Source of the DNA: Phreatobacter sp. | GTDB taxonomy: Bacteria; Pseudomonadota; Alphaproteobacteria; Rhizobiales; Phreatobacteraceae | Assembly: GCF_030691135.1 (NCBI RefSeq) | Contig: NZ_JAUYFA010000051.1 | Location: 1-41,609 of the forward strand | DNA length: 41,609 nt | Direction: 5' to 3' | In this document: piece by piece, positions 5,001 through 22,930 of the stretch | Layout: each line of letters opens with the position of its first letter | How positions within the stretch are numbered: the first letter of the stretch is position 1 | The notes under the pieces: model-generated | The model's input: only the letters and a program-made list of their open reading frames with translations | The model's database searches: none | What the model was told of the DNA's origin: nothing | Translations under genes and position numbers: made by a program

Positions 5001-6590
5001 ATGTTCATTCGCAGTCTTTTGGTCGGCCTTCTTGCTACCTTGGCCACGCCGACCTTGGCGCAGACCTCCTATCCCGCGCCTTGCGACAACACCTATTGCG
5101 TCGGGGACCTCACCAGACCCGATTCAGTCAGGAACAGCGAAGCGGTCAGCCGAGGCTTCAACGTCTCGCGCGTGACAGGCGCGCCGCTAGACCCGACCAA
5201 ACTGTATGTCATCTCGGTCACTTCGACGGCCTCCCGAGACGCGACGCCGTTGGTGCGGCAGGGGCTCTTCACGAATCAAACGACATACCTTTCGCTGAAC
5301 ATCTTCTTTGACACGGATGCGCCTGGGGTGGTTGTGCCAGCCAACCCGGCAAGGATCGCGGTCTCCCCCTACACGATGAGCAAAGATGCCAGCGGGGCAA
5401 CTATCCGCATTGAGGAAATGAGCGCCGTCCGCTTCGTAACCCGAGGCGACCTGCGCCGCCTTCGGGTGGAAGTGGCCTCAGTCGAGGACACCGCACCCAA
5501 CGACACCACCAAGGCGCTCAAGCTGTTCCTCTCGCTGCTATCGCCCATCAACGCGCTCTTGAACGTCGGCTCCGGAACCTTCTTCGGCAAGCTCGCCGCA
5601 CAGGGCTCCAGCATCACGTCGGTGGTGAACGATCTCTCCGCCGCCCAATCAGCCAAGGTGACAAGGACGGGATCGACCGCCCTCAATATCCGTCCGCGCG
5701 GCGTCACCACCTACACGATTAGTTCCCCGATCTCCCAAACCACGATCTCGATTCAAGCGGTGGCCTCATTGGGCGAGGTCCTGAACAACGACGCTCTCTA
5801 CCCCCAGATCCGCAGCGTCATGGACCTCCTCGCTGACACCAAAGTCGGGAATGACCTGGCCGCGTGTTCGCGCATCGCAGGGGATCTGGGGCTGGAGTAT
5901 GCGGGCCTTGCACTGACCGACAAGGCTCTGATCCTCGGCTATGTCGGCACAAGGCGCGCCGGCGACAATGTGTTCGCCAAACTGGATTGTGTCGGCGAGG
6001 ACCTGGTTCAGCGCAGTGAAGTTCAGACCGCTCTGATTGGCGCGCGCTACAATGCGGGCCTCGTGCGAGCGAGGATCGATCGCGCTGGCATAGACGACTA
6101 TCTCAGGCAGCGCGAAGTTGGAGATTTTTTCGAAACACTCGCGGCGGACTACATGGCTGCTGCAGGGGCCACTGATGGAGATCGTGCGGCAAGGACCGCG
6201 ACGGTCCTGCAGCATTTCGATCCGTCCATCGCGCTGTCAGACCCTCCCCGAACTCTGGGCCTCCCCGCAGCCCAAGTGAGCTCTCAAGAGTTAGTCCAGG
6301 CGATGATCGGATCCGGAATTTATTGGCTTGGCTGCAGGTCGTCCGTTCCTCTACGGCCGGGATATGCACACTTCATTGCAGGATTGCCGAGAGAACCGCG
6401 GCCGGAGGCCAATGGGGCCGCTGGTGCCAACTTCCCTCTTGCAGACGTAAGAGGGATTCAGCTGGCGTTGGCTAAGCGAGACAACCGGCACGTGATCTCC
6501 TCGCTCTTCATAACGCGTTCACCTTCTGCGACCGGCAGCTTTCACAGCCAGCGGTGCCACCCAGATGCGAAGGCCATCGGCCCCAGCTGA
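5001..6590 (+). CDS. Exported protein of unknown function
   Basis: The protein has 529 residues from the ATG at 5001, chosen because GGGGAG lies just upstream and a classical Sec signal peptide follows (MFIRSLLVGLLATLATPTLA, cleavage before QTSYP). An upstream in-frame start at 4929 would bury that signal. The mature part has few cysteines, including a CDNTYC pair near the N-terminus, which might form a disulfide in the periplasm. It is beta-rich by appearance in the first half and more helical after about residue 260. I recognise no family. It stands alone on the plus strand between the SRAP remnant and the small zinc-ribbon gene, so context gives no function. Confidence 0.8.
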   Translation: MFIRSLLVGLLATLATPTLAQTSYPAPCDNTYCVGDLTRPDSVRNSEAVSRGFNVSRVTGAPLDPTKLYVISVTSTASRDATPLVRQGLFTNQTTYLSLNIFFDTDAPGVVVPANPARIAVSPYTMSKDASGATIRIEEMSAVRFVTRGDLRRLRVEVASVEDTAPNDTTKALKLFLSLLSPINALLNVGSGTFFGKLAAQGSSITSVVNDLSAAQSAKVTRTGSTALNIRPRGVTTYTISSPISQTTISIQAVASLGEVLNNDALYPQIRSVMDLLADTKVGNDLAACSRIAGDLGLEYAGLALTDKALILGYVGTRRAGDNVFAKLDCVGEDLVQRSEVQTALIGARYNAGLVRARIDRAGIDDYLRQREVGDFFETLAADYMAAAGATDGDRAARTATVLQHFDPSIALSDPPRTLGLPAAQVSSQELVQAMIGSGIYWLGCRSSVPLRPGYAHFIAGLPREPRPEANGAAGANFPLADVRGIQLALAKRDNRHVISSLFITRSPSATGSFHSQRCHPDAKAIGPS

Positions 6591-6846
6591 TGGAGGCTAA
6601 ACGCAGAGAACGTCGCCTCCAGCGGCGGCACCCGCCGGGAGGGACCAGGATTGGGCAGCGGACGTAACGCCCCTTCGGGATAGCGAGCCGGCGTGACAGG
6701 CCCCACAATTCACCTGCAGTCGCCGGCAGGGGTAAAAGACCCGTCGCGCCGACGCGGGCCATAAAAGCTATCGATTACCAACCGCCTAGACGGGCCTCGC
6801 CGTTACCAATAACCTTTAACAAGCGCTTACTAGGTGAGGGGTTCAG

Positions 6847-15586: not shown

Positions 15587-16174
15587 TCAGCGCAGGACGA
15601 CGACCCGCGTGCCGACGCGGACGCGGTCGTAGAGGTCGACGACATCCTCGTTGAGCATGCGGATGCAGCCGGAGGAGACGGCCTGGCCGATCGTGTGCGG
15701 CTCGTTGGAGCCGTGGATGCGATAGAGCGAGGAGCCCAGATAGAGGGCGCGGGCGCCGAGCGGGTTGTCCGGACCACCGGCCATGAAGCGCGGAAGGTCG
15801 GGGCGACGCTGCAGCATCTGCACGGGCGGGCGCCAGTCCGGCCATTCCTGCTTGCGGGTGATGGTGGGGCTGCCGGCCCATTCGAAACCGGGGCGGCCGA
15901 CGCCGATGCCGTAGCGCATGGCGCGGCCGTCGGCGAGGACGAGATAGAGGCGGCGCTCGGCGGTGTTGACCACCACGGTACCGGGCGCATAGGCGCCCTG
16001 GAAGGCGACGATCTCGCGCGGGATTGCGGGGGCGCGGGCCGTCGCGGCATGGGGCCGGGCGATCAGCGGCTCGCGGGTGTCGGGATCGAACATGATCGTC
16101 TGGGCGAAGGGATTGGCGGAGGCGGCCGAGGCGGCGAGCGACAGGGCGGCGGCGAGGACGAGGCGGCGGTTCAT
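15587..16174 (-). CDS. L,D-transpeptidase (YkuD domain)
   Basis: The protein has 195 residues with a Sec signal peptide (MNRRLVLAAALSLAASAASA), which fixes the start at 16174. The YkuD domain spans about residues 65-193 and has the signature HGSNEPHTIGQAVSSGCIRM, with catalytic His154 and nucleophile Cys170. These enzymes make 3-3 peptidoglycan crosslinks or attach proteins to peptidoglycan in the periplasm. The short single-domain form is common and multi-copy in Rhizobiales. It follows the small membrane protein gene at 16209-16535 by 34 bp and ends at a clear terminator. Confidence 0.95.
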   Translation of the reverse strand: MNRRLVLAAALSLAASAASANPFAQTIMFDPDTREPLIARPHAATARAPAIPREIVAFQGAYAPGTVVVNTAERRLYLVLADGRAMRYGIGVGRPGFEWAGSPTITRKQEWPDWRPPVQMLQRRPDLPRFMAGGPDNPLGARALYLGSSLYRIHGSNEPHTIGQAVSSGCIRMLNEDVVDLYDRVRVGTRVVVLR

Positions 16175-16208: not shown

Positions 16209-16535
16209 TCAGCGGCTGGTCTGGTCGAGGGCGACCAGGCGAACGGGGCGCCGGTGCTCGCCCTGCGGCGAGGTCTGGCAGCTCTGCGGGATGTGCGGCC
16301 AGGCGAAGCGGGCGCAGTCGCCGTCGAGGGTGGCGGCGCGGCGCGGCGCGGCGTCGAGGCGGTTGCGGAACCGGTCGAAAGCCCTGTGGGCGTGATCGAT
16401 GTCATCGGCCGTGTGGGACACGGCGAGGGCGGCGCTCGACACCGCGGCGCGGCCGTCGGGAGCGATCACCACGGCCAGGGCGAGGCCGAGAGCCGCCACA
16501 CCGCCGAGAGCCAGAAACTGCGATATCCGGTTCAT
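16209..16535 (-). CDS. Small membrane-anchored or exported hypothetical protein
   Basis: The product is 108 residues from the ATG at 16535. A GGGGGA motif lies upstream. An alternative start at 16562 would add nine residues. The N-terminal hydrophobic segment (FLALGGVAALGLALAVVIAP) could be a signal peptide or anchor. The remainder is polar, with two cysteines (LDGDCARFAWPHIPQSCQ), so a periplasmic disulfide is possible. No family is recognised. It sits directly upstream of the L,D-transpeptidase gene in the same direction and may be co-expressed. Confidence 0.65.
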   Translation of the reverse strand: MNRISQFLALGGVAALGLALAVVIAPDGRAAVSSAALAVSHTADDIDHAHRAFDRFRNRLDAAPRRAATLDGDCARFAWPHIPQSCQTSPQGEHRRPVRLVALDQTSR

Positions 16536-16792: not shown

Positions 16793-17515
16793 TCAGCCCT
16801 TCTCGCCCTCGGGCATGAACATGTAGCCGGCGCCGCGCACGGTGCGGATATAGACGGGGGCGTCGGCGTCGGGCTCGATCTTGCGGCGGATGCGGGTGAT
16901 GCGCACGTCGATGGCGCGATCGAAGGCCTCGGGGTCGCGGGCGCCGGCGAGATCGAGCAGGCGGTCACGCGACAGGACCCGGCGCGGATTATCGGCGAAG
17001 GCCTTCAAAAGGTTGAACTCGGAGCCGGTCAGGGGATGCTCGGCCCCGGCATCGTCGCGCAGCACCTGGGCGCCGAGGTCGAGGATCCTGGTGCCGAAGC
17101 GCACGAGATCGCGGGTTCCGCCCGCCCCGGCCGGCCGGGCCGGCGCCACGGCGCGGCGCAGCAGAGAGCGGATCCGCGCCAGCAATTCGCGCAGCTCGCA
17201 CGGCTTGGCGAGATAGTCGTCGGCGCCGAAGTCGAGGCCGGCGATGCGGTCGTCGGGGCTGGCGGTGGCGGTCAGCATGATCACCGGCACGGGCAGCCGC
17301 TGCTTCAGGTCGCGCAGGATGGTGAGCCCGTCCTCCCCGGGCATGTTGAGGTCCAGCACGACGATGGCCGGCCGCTCCGCCTCCAGCGCCCGGCGCAGCG
17401 CCGCGCCGCCGTCGCAGAGCGTCACCCGGAAGCCGTGCATCTTGAGATAGTCGCCGACCATGTCGCGGGCGGCGGCCTCGTCGTCGACGACGATGACGAG
17501 CTGGCCGGCGATCAT
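16793..17515 (-). CDS. OmpR/PhoB-type response regulator
   Basis: The protein has 240 residues. The receiver domain (about 5-118) has acidic pocket Asp11/Asp12, phosphoacceptor Asp55 (VVLDLNMPG), Thr82 and Lys104. The winged-helix DNA-binding domain (about 140-235) ends in the typical 'VRTVRGAGYMF'. Once phosphorylated it should bind tandem DNA sites and control transcription. Its ATG overlaps the stop of the DUF3369 kinase gene by 4 bp, and it is the last gene of a four-gene signalling operon. The long antisense-like extension of the frame to 18130 is a shadow. Target genes are unknown. Confidence 0.95.
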   Translation of the reverse strand: MIAGQLVIVVDDEAAARDMVGDYLKMHGFRVTLCDGGAALRRALEAERPAIVVLDLNMPGEDGLTILRDLKQRLPVPVIMLTATASPDDRIAGLDFGADDYLAKPCELRELLARIRSLLRRAVAPARPAGAGGTRDLVRFGTRILDLGAQVLRDDAGAEHPLTGSEFNLLKAFADNPRRVLSRDRLLDLAGARDPEAFDRAIDVRITRIRRKIEPDADAPVYIRTVRGAGYMFMPEGEKG

Positions 17516-19290
17516 GACGGGCCGCGCTGCACGAGGGGCGGCAGCGTGAAGGCGAAGGTCGCGCCGCTGCCGGGACCGTTGTCCGTGGCGGTGATGCGGC
17601 CGCCGTGCAGTTCGACGATGCGCCGGCAGATGAACAGGCCGAGGCCGGTCGAGCTCTCGCCCCCGGTCGGCTTGGCGGAGAGGCGCTGGAAGCGCCCGAA
17701 CAGGCGCTGCTCGTCCTCCAGCGTCAGGCCGGGGCCGGAATCGCTGACCGCGATCCGCAGACCCGCCTCGCTGGCGGCGAGCGATACGCTGATGCGGCCG
17801 CCGGGCGGCGAGTATTTCACGGCATTGGAGACGAGGTTGTCGATCGCCTCGCGCAGCCGGTCGGGATCGGCGCGGCCGGGCAGCGCGTCCGGCCCGCTGT
17901 AGACGAGCATCTGGCCCTTGCGTTCGGCCAGCGGCGCATTGGCGTCGATCACCGCGCCGACGATGGCGGCGGCGTCGATGTCGGCGAGGCGCAGCACGAT
18001 GTCCTCGGCGTCGAGCATGGCGTCGTTGATCAGTTCGTCGACCATCGAGGTCATGCGCGCGACGGAGGCGCGGATCTGCTCGATCTGGCTGCGGGCGCGG
18101 TCGATGTTCGGCGGATCGAGGCAGAGCCATTCGTTCATCATCTCGGAGCGGCCGAGAATGACGCCGAGCGGGTTCTTCAGGTCATGGGCGACGGTGCCGA
18201 GCACATCGGCCTTGTGGTCGTTGGTGCGCTTCAGGCGCTGCCACTGGGCCGTCAGCCGCTCGTTGGCGAGGGTGAGCTGGCGGGTGCGGTCGGCGACGCG
18301 CCGCTCGAGGGTGGCGTTGGCGGCCTGCAGCTGCTCGTAGAGGATGACATTGTCGAAGGCGGTGGAGAGGCGGCCGCAGAAGACCGCGACCAGGGTCTGG
18401 TCGGTGTCAGAGAGCGGCCGGTCGGAGGTCAGCGCGACGACGACCTCGCGGCCGCTGGAGGTCTTGATGTAGAGGGCGGTCTCGGTCGCCTCGAAGGCAT
18501 GGCGGCGGCGCTCGAAGGCGCGCTGGACGAGCTGGTCCATCGCGGCGTCGAGGAGGGCGGCGCCACCGGCCGCAACCGGGGCGTAGACGCCCGAGCCGGC
18601 CAGCACGGCGAAATGGTCGCGGCCATCCTCGCGCAGCACCAGGATGCCCTCGCAGGAGGCCTGGACCAGCCCGGCGATCTGGGTGAGCACGCCGGCGGCG
18701 AGCTTCTTGATGGATTTCAGGTCGAAGAGCTCGGAGGCCGCCTCGACGATCAGTTCGAGGCCGCGCCGGGTCTCCACCAGGCGCATCAGCTGCTGGTAGG
18801 AGCGGATGGCGGCGGTGAGCGACGTGAAGAGCTTGTCGCCGGTCAGCTCGGTCTTCGCCTTGTAGTCATTGATGTCGTAGTCGACGATCACCTGCCGCTC
18901 GGGCGCCTGGCCAGGCTGGCCGGTGCGCAGGATGATGCGCACCGTGTCGTTCTTCAGCTCCTTGCGGATATACTCGACCAGGTCGAGGCCGGCCCCGTCG
19001 CTCTCCATGACGACGTCGAGCAGCACCACCGCCATGTCGGGATGGCGGGCCAGCAGCGTGCGGCCCTCGGCGGCGGAGAAGGCGGAATAGAGGTCGAGCC
19101 TGTGGCCGGCCAGCTGGTAGTCGGACAGCGCATATTTGGTGCCGGAATGGATCGCGGCATCGTCGTCGATGATGGCGACCTTCCAGCGGCCTGCTTCGGT
19201 TACGGCGTCGCCGGGGCCATCGTCGAGGATCGCGACGAGATCGTCGTCGTCCTCGGGTCGCGGCGCATCCTGGTTCGGGTCGGACATCAT
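17512..19290 (-). CDS. Hybrid histidine kinase, REC-DUF3369-HisKA-HATPase
   Basis: This soluble kinase has 592 residues. The N-terminal receiver domain (about 36-155) has Asp42-44, phosphoacceptor Asp92 (LLDVVMES), Thr123 and Lys144. DUF3369 (about 160-325) follows, then a coiled coil (LQAANATLERRVADRTRQL), HisKA with phosphorylated His369 (VAHDLKNPLG) and an HATPase domain with N485/N489, DSGPG and STGLGLFI boxes. It has no membrane segment, so its input is probably phosphoryl transfer to Asp92 from the membrane kinase encoded immediately upstream. Stop and start codons overlap at both ends (ATGA), so the operon is tightly coupled. Confidence 0.95.
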   Translation of the reverse strand: MMSDPNQDAPRPEDDDDLVAILDDGPGDAVTEAGRWKVAIIDDDAAIHSGTKYALSDYQLAGHRLDLYSAFSAAEGRTLLARHPDMAVVLLDVVMESDGAGLDLVEYIRKELKNDTVRIILRTGQPGQAPERQVIVDYDINDYKAKTELTGDKLFTSLTAAIRSYQQLMRLVETRRGLELIVEAASELFDLKSIKKLAAGVLTQIAGLVQASCEGILVLREDGRDHFAVLAGSGVYAPVAAGGAALLDAAMDQLVQRAFERRRHAFEATETALYIKTSSGREVVVALTSDRPLSDTDQTLVAVFCGRLSTAFDNVILYEQLQAANATLERRVADRTRQLTLANERLTAQWQRLKRTNDHKADVLGTVAHDLKNPLGVILGRSEMMNEWLCLDPPNIDRARSQIEQIRASVARMTSMVDELINDAMLDAEDIVLRLADIDAAAIVGAVIDANAPLAERKGQMLVYSGPDALPGRADPDRLREAIDNLVSNAVKYSPPGGRISVSLAASEAGLRIAVSDSGPGLTLEDEQRLFGRFQRLSAKPTGGESSTGLGLFICRRIVELHGGRITATDNGPGSGATFAFTLPPLVQRGPS

Positions 19291-21326
19291 GCAGGTTCCT
19301 GCCGGTCGCCGGGCTCCTGCGGCGCGGTCAGCGGCAGGACGATGCGGAAGCTGGTGCCGACGCCCGGCGTCGACGCCAGCGAGATACGCCCGCCGAGGCG
19401 GCGTGTCACGATGTTGAAGACGATATTGAGACCGAGCCCGGTACCGCCCTGCCCGCGCCGCGTGGTGAAGAAGGGATCATAGGCCTGACGCTGCACCTCG
19501 GCGTTCATGCCCATGCCGTCGTCGCGGAAGGTCATGACGACGTGGTCGCCCTCCGGCACCGCCTCGATGACGAAGGTCCCCGGACGGCCGTCCGGGAATG
19601 CATGGGTCAGCGCATTGATGAAGAGGTTGGTGACCACCTGCCCGTAGGGGCCGGGATAGCTGTCGAGGACGATGTCGGGCGGGACATGGACCTCCAGCTT
19701 GACCGGCGCCCGCCTGAGCGTCGGCCGCAGGCTGGCGACGATCTGGTCGGTGGCCTCGGCCAGGTTGAAATGGCGCCGGTCGGCATGGCTGCGGTCGACA
19801 GCCACCTGCTTGAAGGCCTGCACCATCTCGCCGGCGCGCTGGAGATTGAGCGAGAGCTGGCTCGCGGCCTCGCGGCTGCCCCGGACGAATTCGTTGAGGC
19901 GCGAGCGGCGCAGCTCGCCGCGCTCCACCTCGCCGGCGAATTCGTCGATGCGGCGCGACAGCGTCGAGGCGACCGTCAGGGAAATGCCGATGGGATTGTT
20001 GACCTCGTGGGCGACGCCGGCGACGAGGCCGCCGAGGGCGGCGAGCTTCTCCGCCTCGACCAGGCTCTGCTGCGTCTCGCGCAGGTGATCGAGCGCGGTC
20101 TCGGCGCGGTCCTTGGCGGCGACGAGATCCTGCTCGGCCCGCTGCTTCTCGATGGCGTTCTGGCGGAACACCTCCACCGCCCGCGCCATGCGACCGATAT
20201 CGTCGGTGGTGGTGAGGCCGGAGGGCGGGCGTTCGAGATCGCCGGCGACGATGGCGTTCATGCTGCCGGCGAGGTCGTCCAGCGGCACGCGGATGGACCT
20301 GGCGATGAGGGTCCAGACGATCGCCGCGATGACGAGGAAGATGCCGGCGATCCCGGCCGCCTGGACGAAGACGATGCGCAGCGTCTGGTCGAGCCGCTGC
20401 TGGGCCGCGTCCTCCTTGGCGCGCACCCGATCGGCCACCTCCTGGATCACGGTGGCCATCACCGCCTGGTTGCCGTCGATCTCGACCTGCAGCAGGCGGT
20501 TCTGCATGCCGAGAACCTGGATCATCCGGCCGAACCCGGCCCGCAGCGCATTGGTGCGCTGGGCGAGCGTCGTCAGCGCGGCACGCTGGAAATCGGTCTC
20601 CGCGAGATCGACCATGACGGGCGCCGTCTGCCGGATCACCTCGATCGACCGCGAGGCCTCCTGCTGCGCCTGCACCGACTGGGTCAGGTAATAGTCGTTG
20701 ATGGCGACCAGGAAGACGGAAAAGGCCTCGCGCGACTTGGCGAGCGAGGGCCCGACGAGGGCGGCGCGGTCGGCCATGGCGGTCTCGACCACGGCATAGA
20801 GCTGGGACAGTTCGCTCGCCGGCTTGCGGATCTCGTTCTCGTAGATGGAGGAAATGGTCTCTCGCACGCTGCGCAGCTCGTCGAAACCCAGCATGAAGCG
20901 CTCGGTGACATTGGTGACCGAGCGCGCCGGGTTCTTCAGCGCGAGGTCGATCTCCTGCTCGATGGCGAGCTTGGCCAGCAGGGCCTTCCGCCGCTGCTCG
21001 ATCTCGTTCAGCACCGCTTCGTTGGGCAGGGCGAAATAGCGGTGGATGAGGGTCTGCAGGCGGCCCGCATCATTCTCGATCGCGGCGAGCAGCCGGTCGA
21101 TGCGGCGTGCCTCCTGCAGGTCGCCCCAGGCCGAGCGGATGGCGCCGGCGCCGGAGGCGATCAGCAGCATGAGAAGGGAGATGAAGGCGAGGTTGAGGAT
21201 CACGACGGTGACGATGCGCCAGCGCACCGGGATGCGCCGCAGCTGCTCGGAGGCCCTGTCGAGCCGGCCGCGGATCGTCCGCAACGTCGGCCGGACCGTC
21301 ACCCGTCGTGCCGTGGTCGCATCCAT
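19287..21326 (-). CDS. Membrane sensor histidine kinase with large periplasmic helical domain
   Basis: The protein has 679 residues from the ATG at 21326. TM1 is at about 38-60. A long helical periplasmic sensor spans about 62-318. TM2 is at about 319-343, HAMP about 344-395, and a coiled coil precedes the HisKA box with His440 (VAHEVNNPIG). The HATPase has N571 (LFINALTHAF), DDGMGM and GGTGLGLNI boxes. It should autophosphorylate on ligand binding and pass phosphate to the following receiver-bearing proteins. Its ATG overlaps the stop of the DctP-like gene (TGATG), which suggests that the periplasmic binding protein is its sensory partner. The frame upstream of 21326 is shadow. Confidence 0.95.
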   Translation of the reverse strand: MDATTARRVTVRPTLRTIRGRLDRASEQLRRIPVRWRIVTVVILNLAFISLLMLLIASGAGAIRSAWGDLQEARRIDRLLAAIENDAGRLQTLIHRYFALPNEAVLNEIEQRRKALLAKLAIEQEIDLALKNPARSVTNVTERFMLGFDELRSVRETISSIYENEIRKPASELSQLYAVVETAMADRAALVGPSLAKSREAFSVFLVAINDYYLTQSVQAQQEASRSIEVIRQTAPVMVDLAETDFQRAALTTLAQRTNALRAGFGRMIQVLGMQNRLLQVEIDGNQAVMATVIQEVADRVRAKEDAAQQRLDQTLRIVFVQAAGIAGIFLVIAAIVWTLIARSIRVPLDDLAGSMNAIVAGDLERPPSGLTTTDDIGRMARAVEVFRQNAIEKQRAEQDLVAAKDRAETALDHLRETQQSLVEAEKLAALGGLVAGVAHEVNNPIGISLTVASTLSRRIDEFAGEVERGELRRSRLNEFVRGSREAASQLSLNLQRAGEMVQAFKQVAVDRSHADRRHFNLAEATDQIVASLRPTLRRAPVKLEVHVPPDIVLDSYPGPYGQVVTNLFINALTHAFPDGRPGTFVIEAVPEGDHVVMTFRDDGMGMNAEVQRQAYDPFFTTRRGQGGTGLGLNIVFNIVTRRLGGRISLASTPGVGTSFRIVLPLTAPQEPGDRQEPA

Positions 21327-22327
21327 CAGCGGGCCTGGCGGATGCGCGCCACCAGCGCGGCGAGAGGAGGATCGGCGGAGAACCGTTCGACGATGGGCCC
21401 GACCGCCCGCTCGAAGCCGTCGCGGTCCTCGAGGGTGACGACGGTGACCCCGGCGGCCTCGGCCTGGCGCCGCGAGGTCTGCTCGAGCTTCAGCCATTGC
21501 TCGCGCATGGCGCGGGCGGAATCGCGCGCCGCGCCGCGAAAAATCTCCCGGTCGGCGGCGGAGAGTTCGTCCCAGGCCTTGCGCGAGACCACCAGCACCT
21601 CGGGGCTCATCGTGTGCTCGGTCAGCGTGATGTGGCGCGCCGCCCGGTAGTGGTCGGTGGTGACATAGGACGGCCAGTTGTTCTCCGCCCCGTGGATGAG
21701 CCCGGTCGCGAGACTGACACTGACCTGGCCATAGGGCAGCGCGATGGGGTCGGCGCCGAGCGCGCGCATCATCTCGACCATCATGTCGGACTGCTGCACC
21801 CGGATGCGCAGGCCCTTGAGGTCCTCGACCCTGCGGATCGGCCTGACGGAATTGTAGATCGAGCGGGCGCCGGAATCGTAGAAGGCGAGCCCCACCAGGC
21901 CATAGCGCGCGAAACCCGCGAGGATGTCCTCGCCGACGGGGCCGTCCAGCACCCGGTGCAGGTGGTCGACCGAGCGGAACAGGAACGGCAGGGCGAGGAT
22001 GTTGGCCTCGGGGATGAAGCTGGCCAGCGGCGCGACATTGGTGCGGTTGATGTCGATGGCGCCGATGCGCGTCTGCTCGATGGTTTCCTTCTCCTCGCCG
22101 AGCTGGCGGGAATGGAAGATGCGCAGCCGGTGACGGCCGCCGGTGCGCTCGGCGATGAGCGCGCCCATGAGCTCAACCGCCTTGACCGTGGGATAGTCGG
22201 CAGGCTGGGTGTCGGCGACGCGGAACTCGCGCGCCGCGAGGTCGCCCCCGCACGGCAGCAGCGCCAGAACGAAAGCCAGCGCGAGCGCCGACGCCCTGCC
22301 TGAAGCGATGCGAACCAACCCGCTCAT
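21326..22327 (-). CDS. TRAP-type periplasmic solute-binding protein (DctP family)
   Basis: The protein has 333 residues with a signal peptide (about 1-32, FVLALLPCGGDLAA). The DctP fold is clear: 'LRIFHSRQLGEEKETIEQTR', 'DINRTNVAPLASFIPEANI', 'DLKGLRIRVQQSDMMVEMM' with the conserved Arg that binds the substrate carboxylate in this family, and 'HGAENNWPSYVTTDHY'. Family members bind organic acids for DctQM permeases. Here no dctQ or dctM gene is nearby. Instead the stop overlaps the start of a membrane histidine kinase, so it probably serves as an extracytoplasmic ligand receptor for signalling, which is my inference. It is the first gene of the operon, and the promoter should lie in 22328-22615. 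Confidence 0.92.
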   Translation of the reverse strand: MSGLVRIASGRASALALAFVLALLPCGGDLAAREFRVADTQPADYPTVKAVELMGALIAERTGGRHRLRIFHSRQLGEEKETIEQTRIGAIDINRTNVAPLASFIPEANILALPFLFRSVDHLHRVLDGPVGEDILAGFARYGLVGLAFYDSGARSIYNSVRPIRRVEDLKGLRIRVQQSDMMVEMMRALGADPIALPYGQVSVSLATGLIHGAENNWPSYVTTDHYRAARHITLTEHTMSPEVLVVSRKAWDELSAADREIFRGAARDSARAMREQWLKLEQTSRRQAEAAGVTVVTLEDRDGFERAVGPIVERFSADPPLAALVARIRQAR

Positions 22328-22615
22328 GTCGAGCCCTTGCGCGTTCCGGGCGCCGCCGGAGGCTCCCCCCGAAATCATGCCACAGATTGCGCGCCCTTCG
22401 CCATCGCCGCTCCGGGCAGGGTGCGCGACCGTGCGTGCATGGTGAAGAGGACCGCTCTGTTTCATTTCCATGTCGTAGCGACCGCAGGTTGTCCGCGCCG
22501 GCGGCAGGCGGGCGACATCACGCCGAAACCGCCACGCCCGATCCTGCCGGCGATCGAGGGTGTGGCCGGCGACGGCTGCGCCGGCTCCGCCGTGAGCGGC
22601 AGCGGGAGATTGCGC

Positions 22616-22930
22616 ATGAACCCCATTCGGACGATCGCCGTCACCATGGTCCTGGCCGCCGGACTGCTGGGCGGCGCCGGTGTGGCGCTGGCCCAGGAGG
22701 ATATCGGGATCCCGGAATGCGACCGTTTCATCACCAGCTATGAGATCTGCGTCACCACCAGGGTTCCGGCGACGCACCGCGTCACCTTCGCCCAGCAGGT
22801 GGCGCAGCTGCGCACGACCTGGCGGTCGCTCGCGCAGGACCCGCAGACACGCCAGCAGCTGGAACTCATCTGCCGCACCCAGGGCGAGCAGATGCGACGC
22901 GGCCTCGAGCCCTTCGGCTGCGCCTTCTAG
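22616..22930 (+). CDS. Small exported protein of unknown function
   Basis: The protein has 104 residues from the ATG at 22616, with GGGAG upstream. It has a signal peptide (TIAVTMVLAAGLLGGAGVALAQ) and a mature part of about 77 residues with four cysteines (IPECDRF, YEICVTT, LELICRTQG, PFGCAF). These probably form two disulfides in a small helical periplasmic protein. It is divergent from the signalling operon and shares the 288-bp intergenic region. No family is recognised with confidence. Confidence 0.75.
   Translation: MNPIRTIAVTMVLAAGLLGGAGVALAQEDIGIPECDRFITSYEICVTTRVPATHRVTFAQQVAQLRTTWRSLAQDPQTRQQLELICRTQGEQMRRGLEPFGCAF

Follow-up and report, generated by a model that had tools for sequence, protein, structure and literature searches.

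A four-gene cassette on the Phreatobacter contig

The window analysed here is the entire contig C24 (NZ_JAUYFA010000051.1; 41,609 nt) of a Phreatobacter sp. genome assembly of 4.2 Mb in 116 contigs. At positions 16793-22327 on the minus strand it carries four overlapping genes for a DctP-family binding protein (SBP), a membrane histidine kinase (HK), a soluble hybrid kinase (HYB) and an OmpR-type regulator (RR); the anatomy given in an earlier note on this DNA, including the domain layout and Asp92 of HYB, was borne out (Table 1). We propose that SBP acts as the periplasmic receptor of HK and that the signal would then pass from HK through HYB to RR, and we assign this chain as a whole a probability of roughly one half.

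Pfam searches placed SBP in the DctP family with 262 bits against a cut-off of 23.4. In HK, about 255 residues lie between two hydrophobic stretches, and the HAMP and HATPase_c domains scored above their cut-offs; HisKA was weak and below its cut-off, yet the H-box AHEVNNP is present. HYB matched DUF3369 with 145 bits and also HisKA and HATPase_c above cut-off, with Response_reg (27.1 bits) slightly below the cut-off of 30.2; it has an N-terminal receiver with a complete phospho-site ahead of an intact kinase core. The SBP/HK, HK/HYB and HYB/RR junctions overlap by 1, 4 and 4 nt, respectively, and the overlap between binding-protein and kinase genes was 1-4 nt in the 10 same-genus loci in which it was measured. 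The predicted phosphotransfer residues are strongly conserved: Asp92 of HYB is kept in 54/54 aligned homologues and His369 in 51/54, the remaining three having no alignment at that place, while HK His440 is kept in 49/49 (5 of 54 loci lack an HK match) and RR Asp55 in 50/50 (4 of 54 lack an RR match).

Among 397 genomes of the order Hyphomicrobiales, 35 matched a profile of the HK sensor domain: 12 from the genus (this genome included), 20 from other families with full-length matches and three with weak matches. Gene order, which the earlier note proposed to compare among relatives, was SBP-HK-HYB-RR in all 12 distinct same-genus loci, one of which ends with its contig inside RR, and near-identical loci occur in Phreatobacter metagenome-assembled genomes. 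HK, HYB and RR were found together in 20/20 loci of other families, and all four genes, with SBP intact, in 14 of these; an arrangement shared so widely is not due to chance. The three weakly matching loci (L080-L082) have HK-HYB-RR and no DctP. When 385 genomes of the class were searched with the sensor domain, a sample that also returned this genome and one other of the same order, the only match beyond the order was a weak one to a chemoreceptor. The DctP-type kinase thus looks confined to Hyphomicrobiales in the sampled genomes. Two further loci retrieved by kinase similarity, L016 and L019, were set aside as unrelated systems, the latter with a DctP gene divergent from a dCache kinase.

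Table 1. Positions of the cassette genes, neighbouring features of the window and examples of the unnamed secreted protein in other loci
Feature	Position	Strand	Description	Domains or family
SBP gene	21326..22327 (stop included)	-	333 aa, signal peptide, DctP-family periplasmic protein	PF03480
HK gene	19287..21326	-	679 aa	TM - helical bimodular periplasmic domain (predicted) - TM - HAMP - HisKA(H440) - HATPase
HYB gene	17512..19290	-	592 aa, soluble	REC(D92) - DUF3369 - HisKA(H369) - HATPase
RR gene	16793..17515	-	240 aa, OmpR-type, D55	Response_reg + Trans_reg_C
Small secreted protein	16209..16535	-	motif C-x4-WP-x-I-x3-C	no Pfam/NCBIfam match
YkuD L,D-transpeptidase	15587..16174	-	cluster c6	PF03734
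Upstream box	22458..22475	-	CGACAYGGAARTGAAACA; conserved, possible regulator site
Unnamed secreted protein, L082	8793-9740 of L082	-
Unnamed secreted protein, L144	3596-4480 of L144	+

The binding protein, the sensor domain and their proposed exchange

Searches of the genome yielded no DctQ or DctM match on contig C24, in agreement with the earlier note's description of a DctP protein without a permease. A DctP match accompanies each of the 15 genomic DctQ matches within 5 kb: the distance is at most 1.5 kb for 14, and on C80 it is 3.7 kb with the DctP on the opposite strand. No DctQ pair is thus visibly left over for the cassette SBP. Among 27 stretches around the other DctP genes and the lone DctM genes of this genome, no HK-, HYB- or RR-like genes were found by a search that detects only kinases resembling these. 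A paralogue about 50% identical to SBP is encoded on C92, followed by dctQ, dctM, kduI (NCBIfam equivalog, 430 bits against a cut-off of 250) and a cupin gene, and kduI is also present in 4/4 other same-genus paralogue loci examined. A GntR-FCD regulator gene lies divergently upstream of this uronate operon. The upstream block of the operon is conserved in 5/5 same-genus loci, and this block was not seen upstream of the cassette. The earlier note had named a co-regulated dctQM pair elsewhere in the genome as an observation that would speak against a receptor; what was found is a paralogue in a dctPQM-kduI operon of its own, with its own divergent regulator and an unrelated upstream site.

The solved structures closest to SBP are those of hexuronate binders, 4n8y (E 1e-102), 4ovr, 4mhf/4mij and 4x8r. 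4N8Y is described as containing galacturonate and 4X8R glucuronate (PMC11668362), and Bpro_3107 (4MHF) is reported to bind both sugars (PMC7660916). The ligand contacts listed for STM3169, Arg150, Arg170 and Asn210 and also Asn35, Gln36, Glu74 and Asp237 (PMC7660916), map by spacing, not by structure, onto R155, R176, N216, T40, Q41, E79 and E243 of SBP, in which E243 takes the place of Asp237. Q41, E79, R155, R176, N216 and E243 are identical in the 25 tabulated intact sensory SBPs. Compared with 15 transport paralogues, the sensory proteins show 11 fixed differences, including Q41 for H and T40 for I, and the ligand may therefore have shifted within a hexuronate-like range. On these sequence similarities we lean slightly towards a hexuronate-like ligand for SBP.

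In a tree of 53 DctP sequences, including 26 sensory and 21 transport SBPs and with long outgroup branches, the 26 sensory SBPs form a single clade (support 100/99) that groups with 15 of the 21 transport SBPs (92/93), the unity of those 15 being weak (81/51). All 20 retrieved paralogues sit in complete dctP-dctQ-dctM sets, and the one in L115 is nearly identical to 4n8y across its full length. The cassette SBP thus looks like a duplicated transport protein that was handed to a kinase, the transporter having retained its own regulator. Genomes with an intact sensory DctP also had a transport DctP of 47% identity or more in 19 of 24 cases, versus 1 of 9 among the others (Fisher p 0.0007), a result not used as proof because the cut-off was chosen after the data were seen and kinship among genomes was not removed; within the largest family the corresponding counts were 6/11 versus 0/4 (p 0.10). 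The orphan SBP accompanies the kinase wherever the cassette was seen in the genus, belongs to its own clade and has no DctP-less DctQ to serve, all of which favours the earlier note's idea of a dedicated receptor outside transport, and SBP is quite probably the receptor of HK.

The periplasmic domain of HK was predicted from 35 sequences as a set of long helices (pLDDT 85.5, pTM 0.56). A Foldseek search with this model returned the ligand-binding domain of McpS (E 1.2e-4, target TM 0.74), PilJ and, more weakly than McpS, TorS bound to TorT (E 6.5e-3, probability 1.00, target TM 0.48, rmsd 7.6). Pfam gave HAMP only and no HBM family match in 35/35 sensor sequences, and a PDB search with the sensor alignment gave chiefly HAMP domains and one aromatic-acid chemoreceptor. 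The domain models as a helical bimodular (HBM-like) fold, which fits both the binding of an SBP, as in TorS, and direct ligand binding, as in McpS.

DUF3369 is more widespread than this sensor domain: among 394 genomes of the order it was present in 59, namely the 35 that have the sensor domain and another 24, and 20 of these 24 supplied additional loci. In 10 of the 20 (L145, L149, L152-L156, L158-L160), a kinase with a different, longer sensor region lies near HYB, followed by an SBP_bac_5 gene. The kinase and SBP_bac_5 genes overlap in L149 and L154 and are about 7 nt apart in L156. Pfam confirmed SBP_bac_5 in 3/3 proteins run, and the protein of L145 is DppA-like, below the NCBIfam cut-off. 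Two peptide-permease queries against the 20 stretches, other permease types not being sought, gave a single match, which lies in L152 next to another SBP_bac_5 paralogue (53% identical). Six loci (L065, L080-L082, L144, L147) have, immediately upstream of the kinase and in place of SBP, a secreted protein that matched nothing in Pfam or NCBIfam; in L065 it lies in frame behind a glycosyltransferase. In L146, L148, L150, L151 and L157, HYB is full-length but the stretch gave no HK match, and L143, L161 and L162 encode a longer DUF3369 protein in which no kinase core aligned.

The HYB tree, whose deep forks are weak, follows the families and needs four changes for the DctP type, three for the SBP_bac_5 type and one for the secreted-protein type, which suggests an inherited core with an exchangeable receptor. 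The earlier note's framing around a TRAP receptor was too narrow, as the same core also stands beside SBP_bac_5 or the unnamed secreted protein. We put at about even odds the wider proposal of a receptor-swappable two-kinase cassette, in which a Hyphomicrobiales core (HEVNNP kinase, REC-DUF3369 kinase and OmpR regulator) would repeatedly have been given a new receptor, duplicated from unrelated transporters (TRAP DctP, ABC SBP_bac_5) or drawn from the unnamed secreted family, with the sensor domain changing alongside. As a separate observation, a UgpB-like binding-protein gene lies divergent from the cassette in 15/15 loci of the largest other family, even where DctP is lost, and could be an alternative receptor; its identity was scanned in one of the 15. 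In L052 the gene lies at 5294-6634 (-), and a phosphotransferase and an SBP_bac_5 protein are encoded beyond it.

Proposed phosphate flow and alternative readings

In the proposed mechanism, SBP would descend from a hexuronate (glucuronate/galacturonate-type) TRAP binding protein but no longer serve a permease, and its ligand-loaded form would change contact with the helical bimodular domain of HK, as TorT does with TorS. His440 of HK would phosphorylate Asp92 of HYB; this phosphate, together with the GAF-like DUF3369 as a possible second, cytoplasmic input, would set the kinase activity of His369, which would in turn phosphorylate Asp55 of RR. The system would then be a cascade of two kinases in which HYB, in the middle, integrates the inputs, and not a relay that passes one phosphate along; its two-kinase core would stay constant while the periplasmic receptor can be exchanged. 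The analysis itself establishes which genes are present and in what order, the conservation of the active residues, the ancestry of SBP, the predicted folds and the differing receptors of the families, whereas the ligand, the SBP-HK contact, the direction and sign of phosphotransfer and the targets are what we infer here.

A model of the REC-DUF3369 part of HYB (pLDDT 80.1, pTM 0.55) best matched the dual-sensor REC-containing histidine kinase 6oaq, 6oap and 6ob8 (E 2e-13), which we take to be a REC-GAF protein; with an rmsd of 12, the two are alike in domains rather than in arrangement. DUF3369 is thus predicted to be GAF-like and may receive a cytoplasmic signal. The DUF3369 region is markedly diverged in L011, L074 and L075 (66% identity to the window versus about 78-95% in the other same-genus aligned loci) and the remaining parts are kept, possibly reflecting a change of cytoplasmic input.

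A precedent for the middle step comes from Agrobacterium, where BphP1 is reported to phosphorylate Asp62 in the receiver of ExsG, this phosphate inhibits the ExsG kinase, and the ExsG His-phosphate goes to ExsF and not to ExsG's own receiver (PMC3899027). Since the receiver phosphate of ExsG inhibits rather than moves on, control of HYB through Asp92 is favoured over transfer from Asp92. HYB, with its HisKA and HATPase_c matches and no HWE-type core, stands outside the ExsG family proper. It is rather likely that HK phosphorylates Asp92, and phosphorylation of RR by HYB is somewhat likelier still. The relay through Asp92 that the earlier note envisaged holds up in part: the conservation of Asp92 and the ExsG precedent support this residue as the probable point of entry, but a cascade with allosteric control fits better than the relaying of phosphate.

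Several observations count against SBP as the head of this chain. Six of the 20 other-family loci lack an intact DctP while HK-HYB-RR persist: the sensory DctP is truncated in L057 (7283-7747(+)) and reduced to a 42-residue remnant in L060 (7524-7649(+)), each with an apparently intact kinase gene, and it was not found in L064, L065, L066 and L069. The likeness of the HK domain to TorS is modest by the values given above, and the better match, McpS, requires no SBP, HBM domains of its kind being able to bind ligands directly. A DctQ within 5 kb is missing for 9 of the 24 DctP matches in this genome, among them a fragment at the end of a contig; orphan DctPs are thus common, and orphan status alone is weak evidence for a receptor role. 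Nor was any upstream site seen in common between the cassette and the uronate operon. The McpS match and the six loci without intact DctP would suit direct sensing, in which a small ligand binds the helical bimodular domain of HK itself and DctP only hitch-hikes or scavenges the ligand. This explanation is at odds with the translational overlap of the SBP and HK genes and the 12/12 same-genus conservation of SBP, it leaves unexplained why a different orphan SBP stands beside the corresponding kinase in other families, and we regard it as unlikely.

It is a little more doubtful that HK and HYB act in parallel on RR as two inputs, with Asp92 merely tuning HYB. In its favour, both kinase cores are intact and HYB has a predicted GAF-like input domain of its own; however, the intact receiver of HYB calls for an upstream kinase, and HK is the only coupled kinase gene. 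The H-box of HYB (HDLKNP) is also of a type that pairs with OmpR regulators more often than the HEVNNP type of HK. Finally, a 50% identical DctP with DctQM in the genome could suggest that SBP is a transport protein borrowing the permease of another TRAP system, with signalling secondary, which is very improbable given that the C92 operon comes with a DctP and a GntR-type regulator of its own, that DctP genes already accompany all genomic DctQ matches, and that the sensory SBPs form a separate clade with its own fixed differences.

Neighbouring genes, known systems and significance

Behind RR on the same strand, a small secreted protein with the motif C-x4-WP-x-I-x3-C is encoded at a distance of 203-790 bp in 10/10 same-genus loci scanned. 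The pattern also identified it 147-591 bp from RR in 8 of the 10 SBP_bac_5-type loci, and a ninth, L152, was recognized by eye; near RR in the largest other family it was not found. As the pattern matches unrelated places too, distance and strand carry the argument that this protein is a possible target or accessory of the cassette. Its neighbour in the window, the YkuD L,D-transpeptidase gene, recurs beside the cassette in L057 (5491-6108(+)). A small secreted-looking open reading frame without a family match (22616-22930(+)) lies divergent from the SBP gene and recurs in several same-genus loci, and the gene after RR in the largest other family encodes an ECF sigma factor. Of 12 aligned loci, seven show the conserved box upstream of the cassette clearly and four in part; in L072 the box was not seen. 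Its only exact match genome-wide is the one at home, and with up to three mismatches there were 8 matches versus 4 for a backward control. The uronate operon was considered as an RR target through a common DNA site but was not accepted as a demonstrated one; it has a different conserved site and the divergent GntR-FCD gene.

Among known systems, TorT-TorS, which senses trimethylamine N-oxide (TMAO), likewise combines a permease-less periplasmic binding protein with a neighbouring kinase that has a long helical periplasmic domain, and the HK domain model matches TorS in its TorT complex, less well than it matches McpS. TorT, however, is not a DctP protein, and TorS carries its own receiver and Hpt domain, whereas the middle step here would be a second soluble kinase. 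DctB of Bacillus subtilis is DctP-like. In BctC-BctDE of Bordetella and DctB-DctS-DctA of B. subtilis, binding proteins of secondary transporters are described as co-sensors of kinases (PMC5812351, PMC6978683); BctC differs in being of the TctC type and still transporting, DctB in working with the transporter DctA and a PAS-type kinase, and neither system includes a second kinase. BphP1-ExsG-ExsF shares an upstream kinase that is reported to phosphorylate the N-terminal receiver of a soluble REC-kinase, whose His-phosphate goes to a third protein (PMC3899027), but it has a phytochrome input, an HWE kinase core, no DUF3369 and no binding protein. The hexuronate SBPs (4N8Y, Bpro_3107 and STM3169) resemble the cassette SBP in sequence family and contact residues; they belong to TRAP transporters, whereas the cassette has no permease and shows fixed changes such as Q41 for H41. 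McpS and other HBM chemoreceptor domains share the predicted bimodular helical fold, but the cassette protein is a histidine kinase and its sensor gave no Pfam HBM match. Our literature searches returned no paper on the cassette, and the papers found for DUF3369 with histidine kinases concern, in the portions of text available, HD-GYP and c-di-GMP proteins. Kinases driven by an SBP have been described before, as have soluble REC-kinases, and the cassette is thus a variation on known designs.

According to a 2022 survey, only about ten binding-protein-activated kinases have been characterised (PMC9602780). The cassette offers a natural series with a constant cytoplasmic part and a varying receptor, and this series allows direct tests of how kinases gain new senses and of whether sensory binding proteins arise when a transporter's binding protein is duplicated. 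It also suggests a role for DUF3369 and provides hexuronates as a ligand guess for an otherwise anonymous system.

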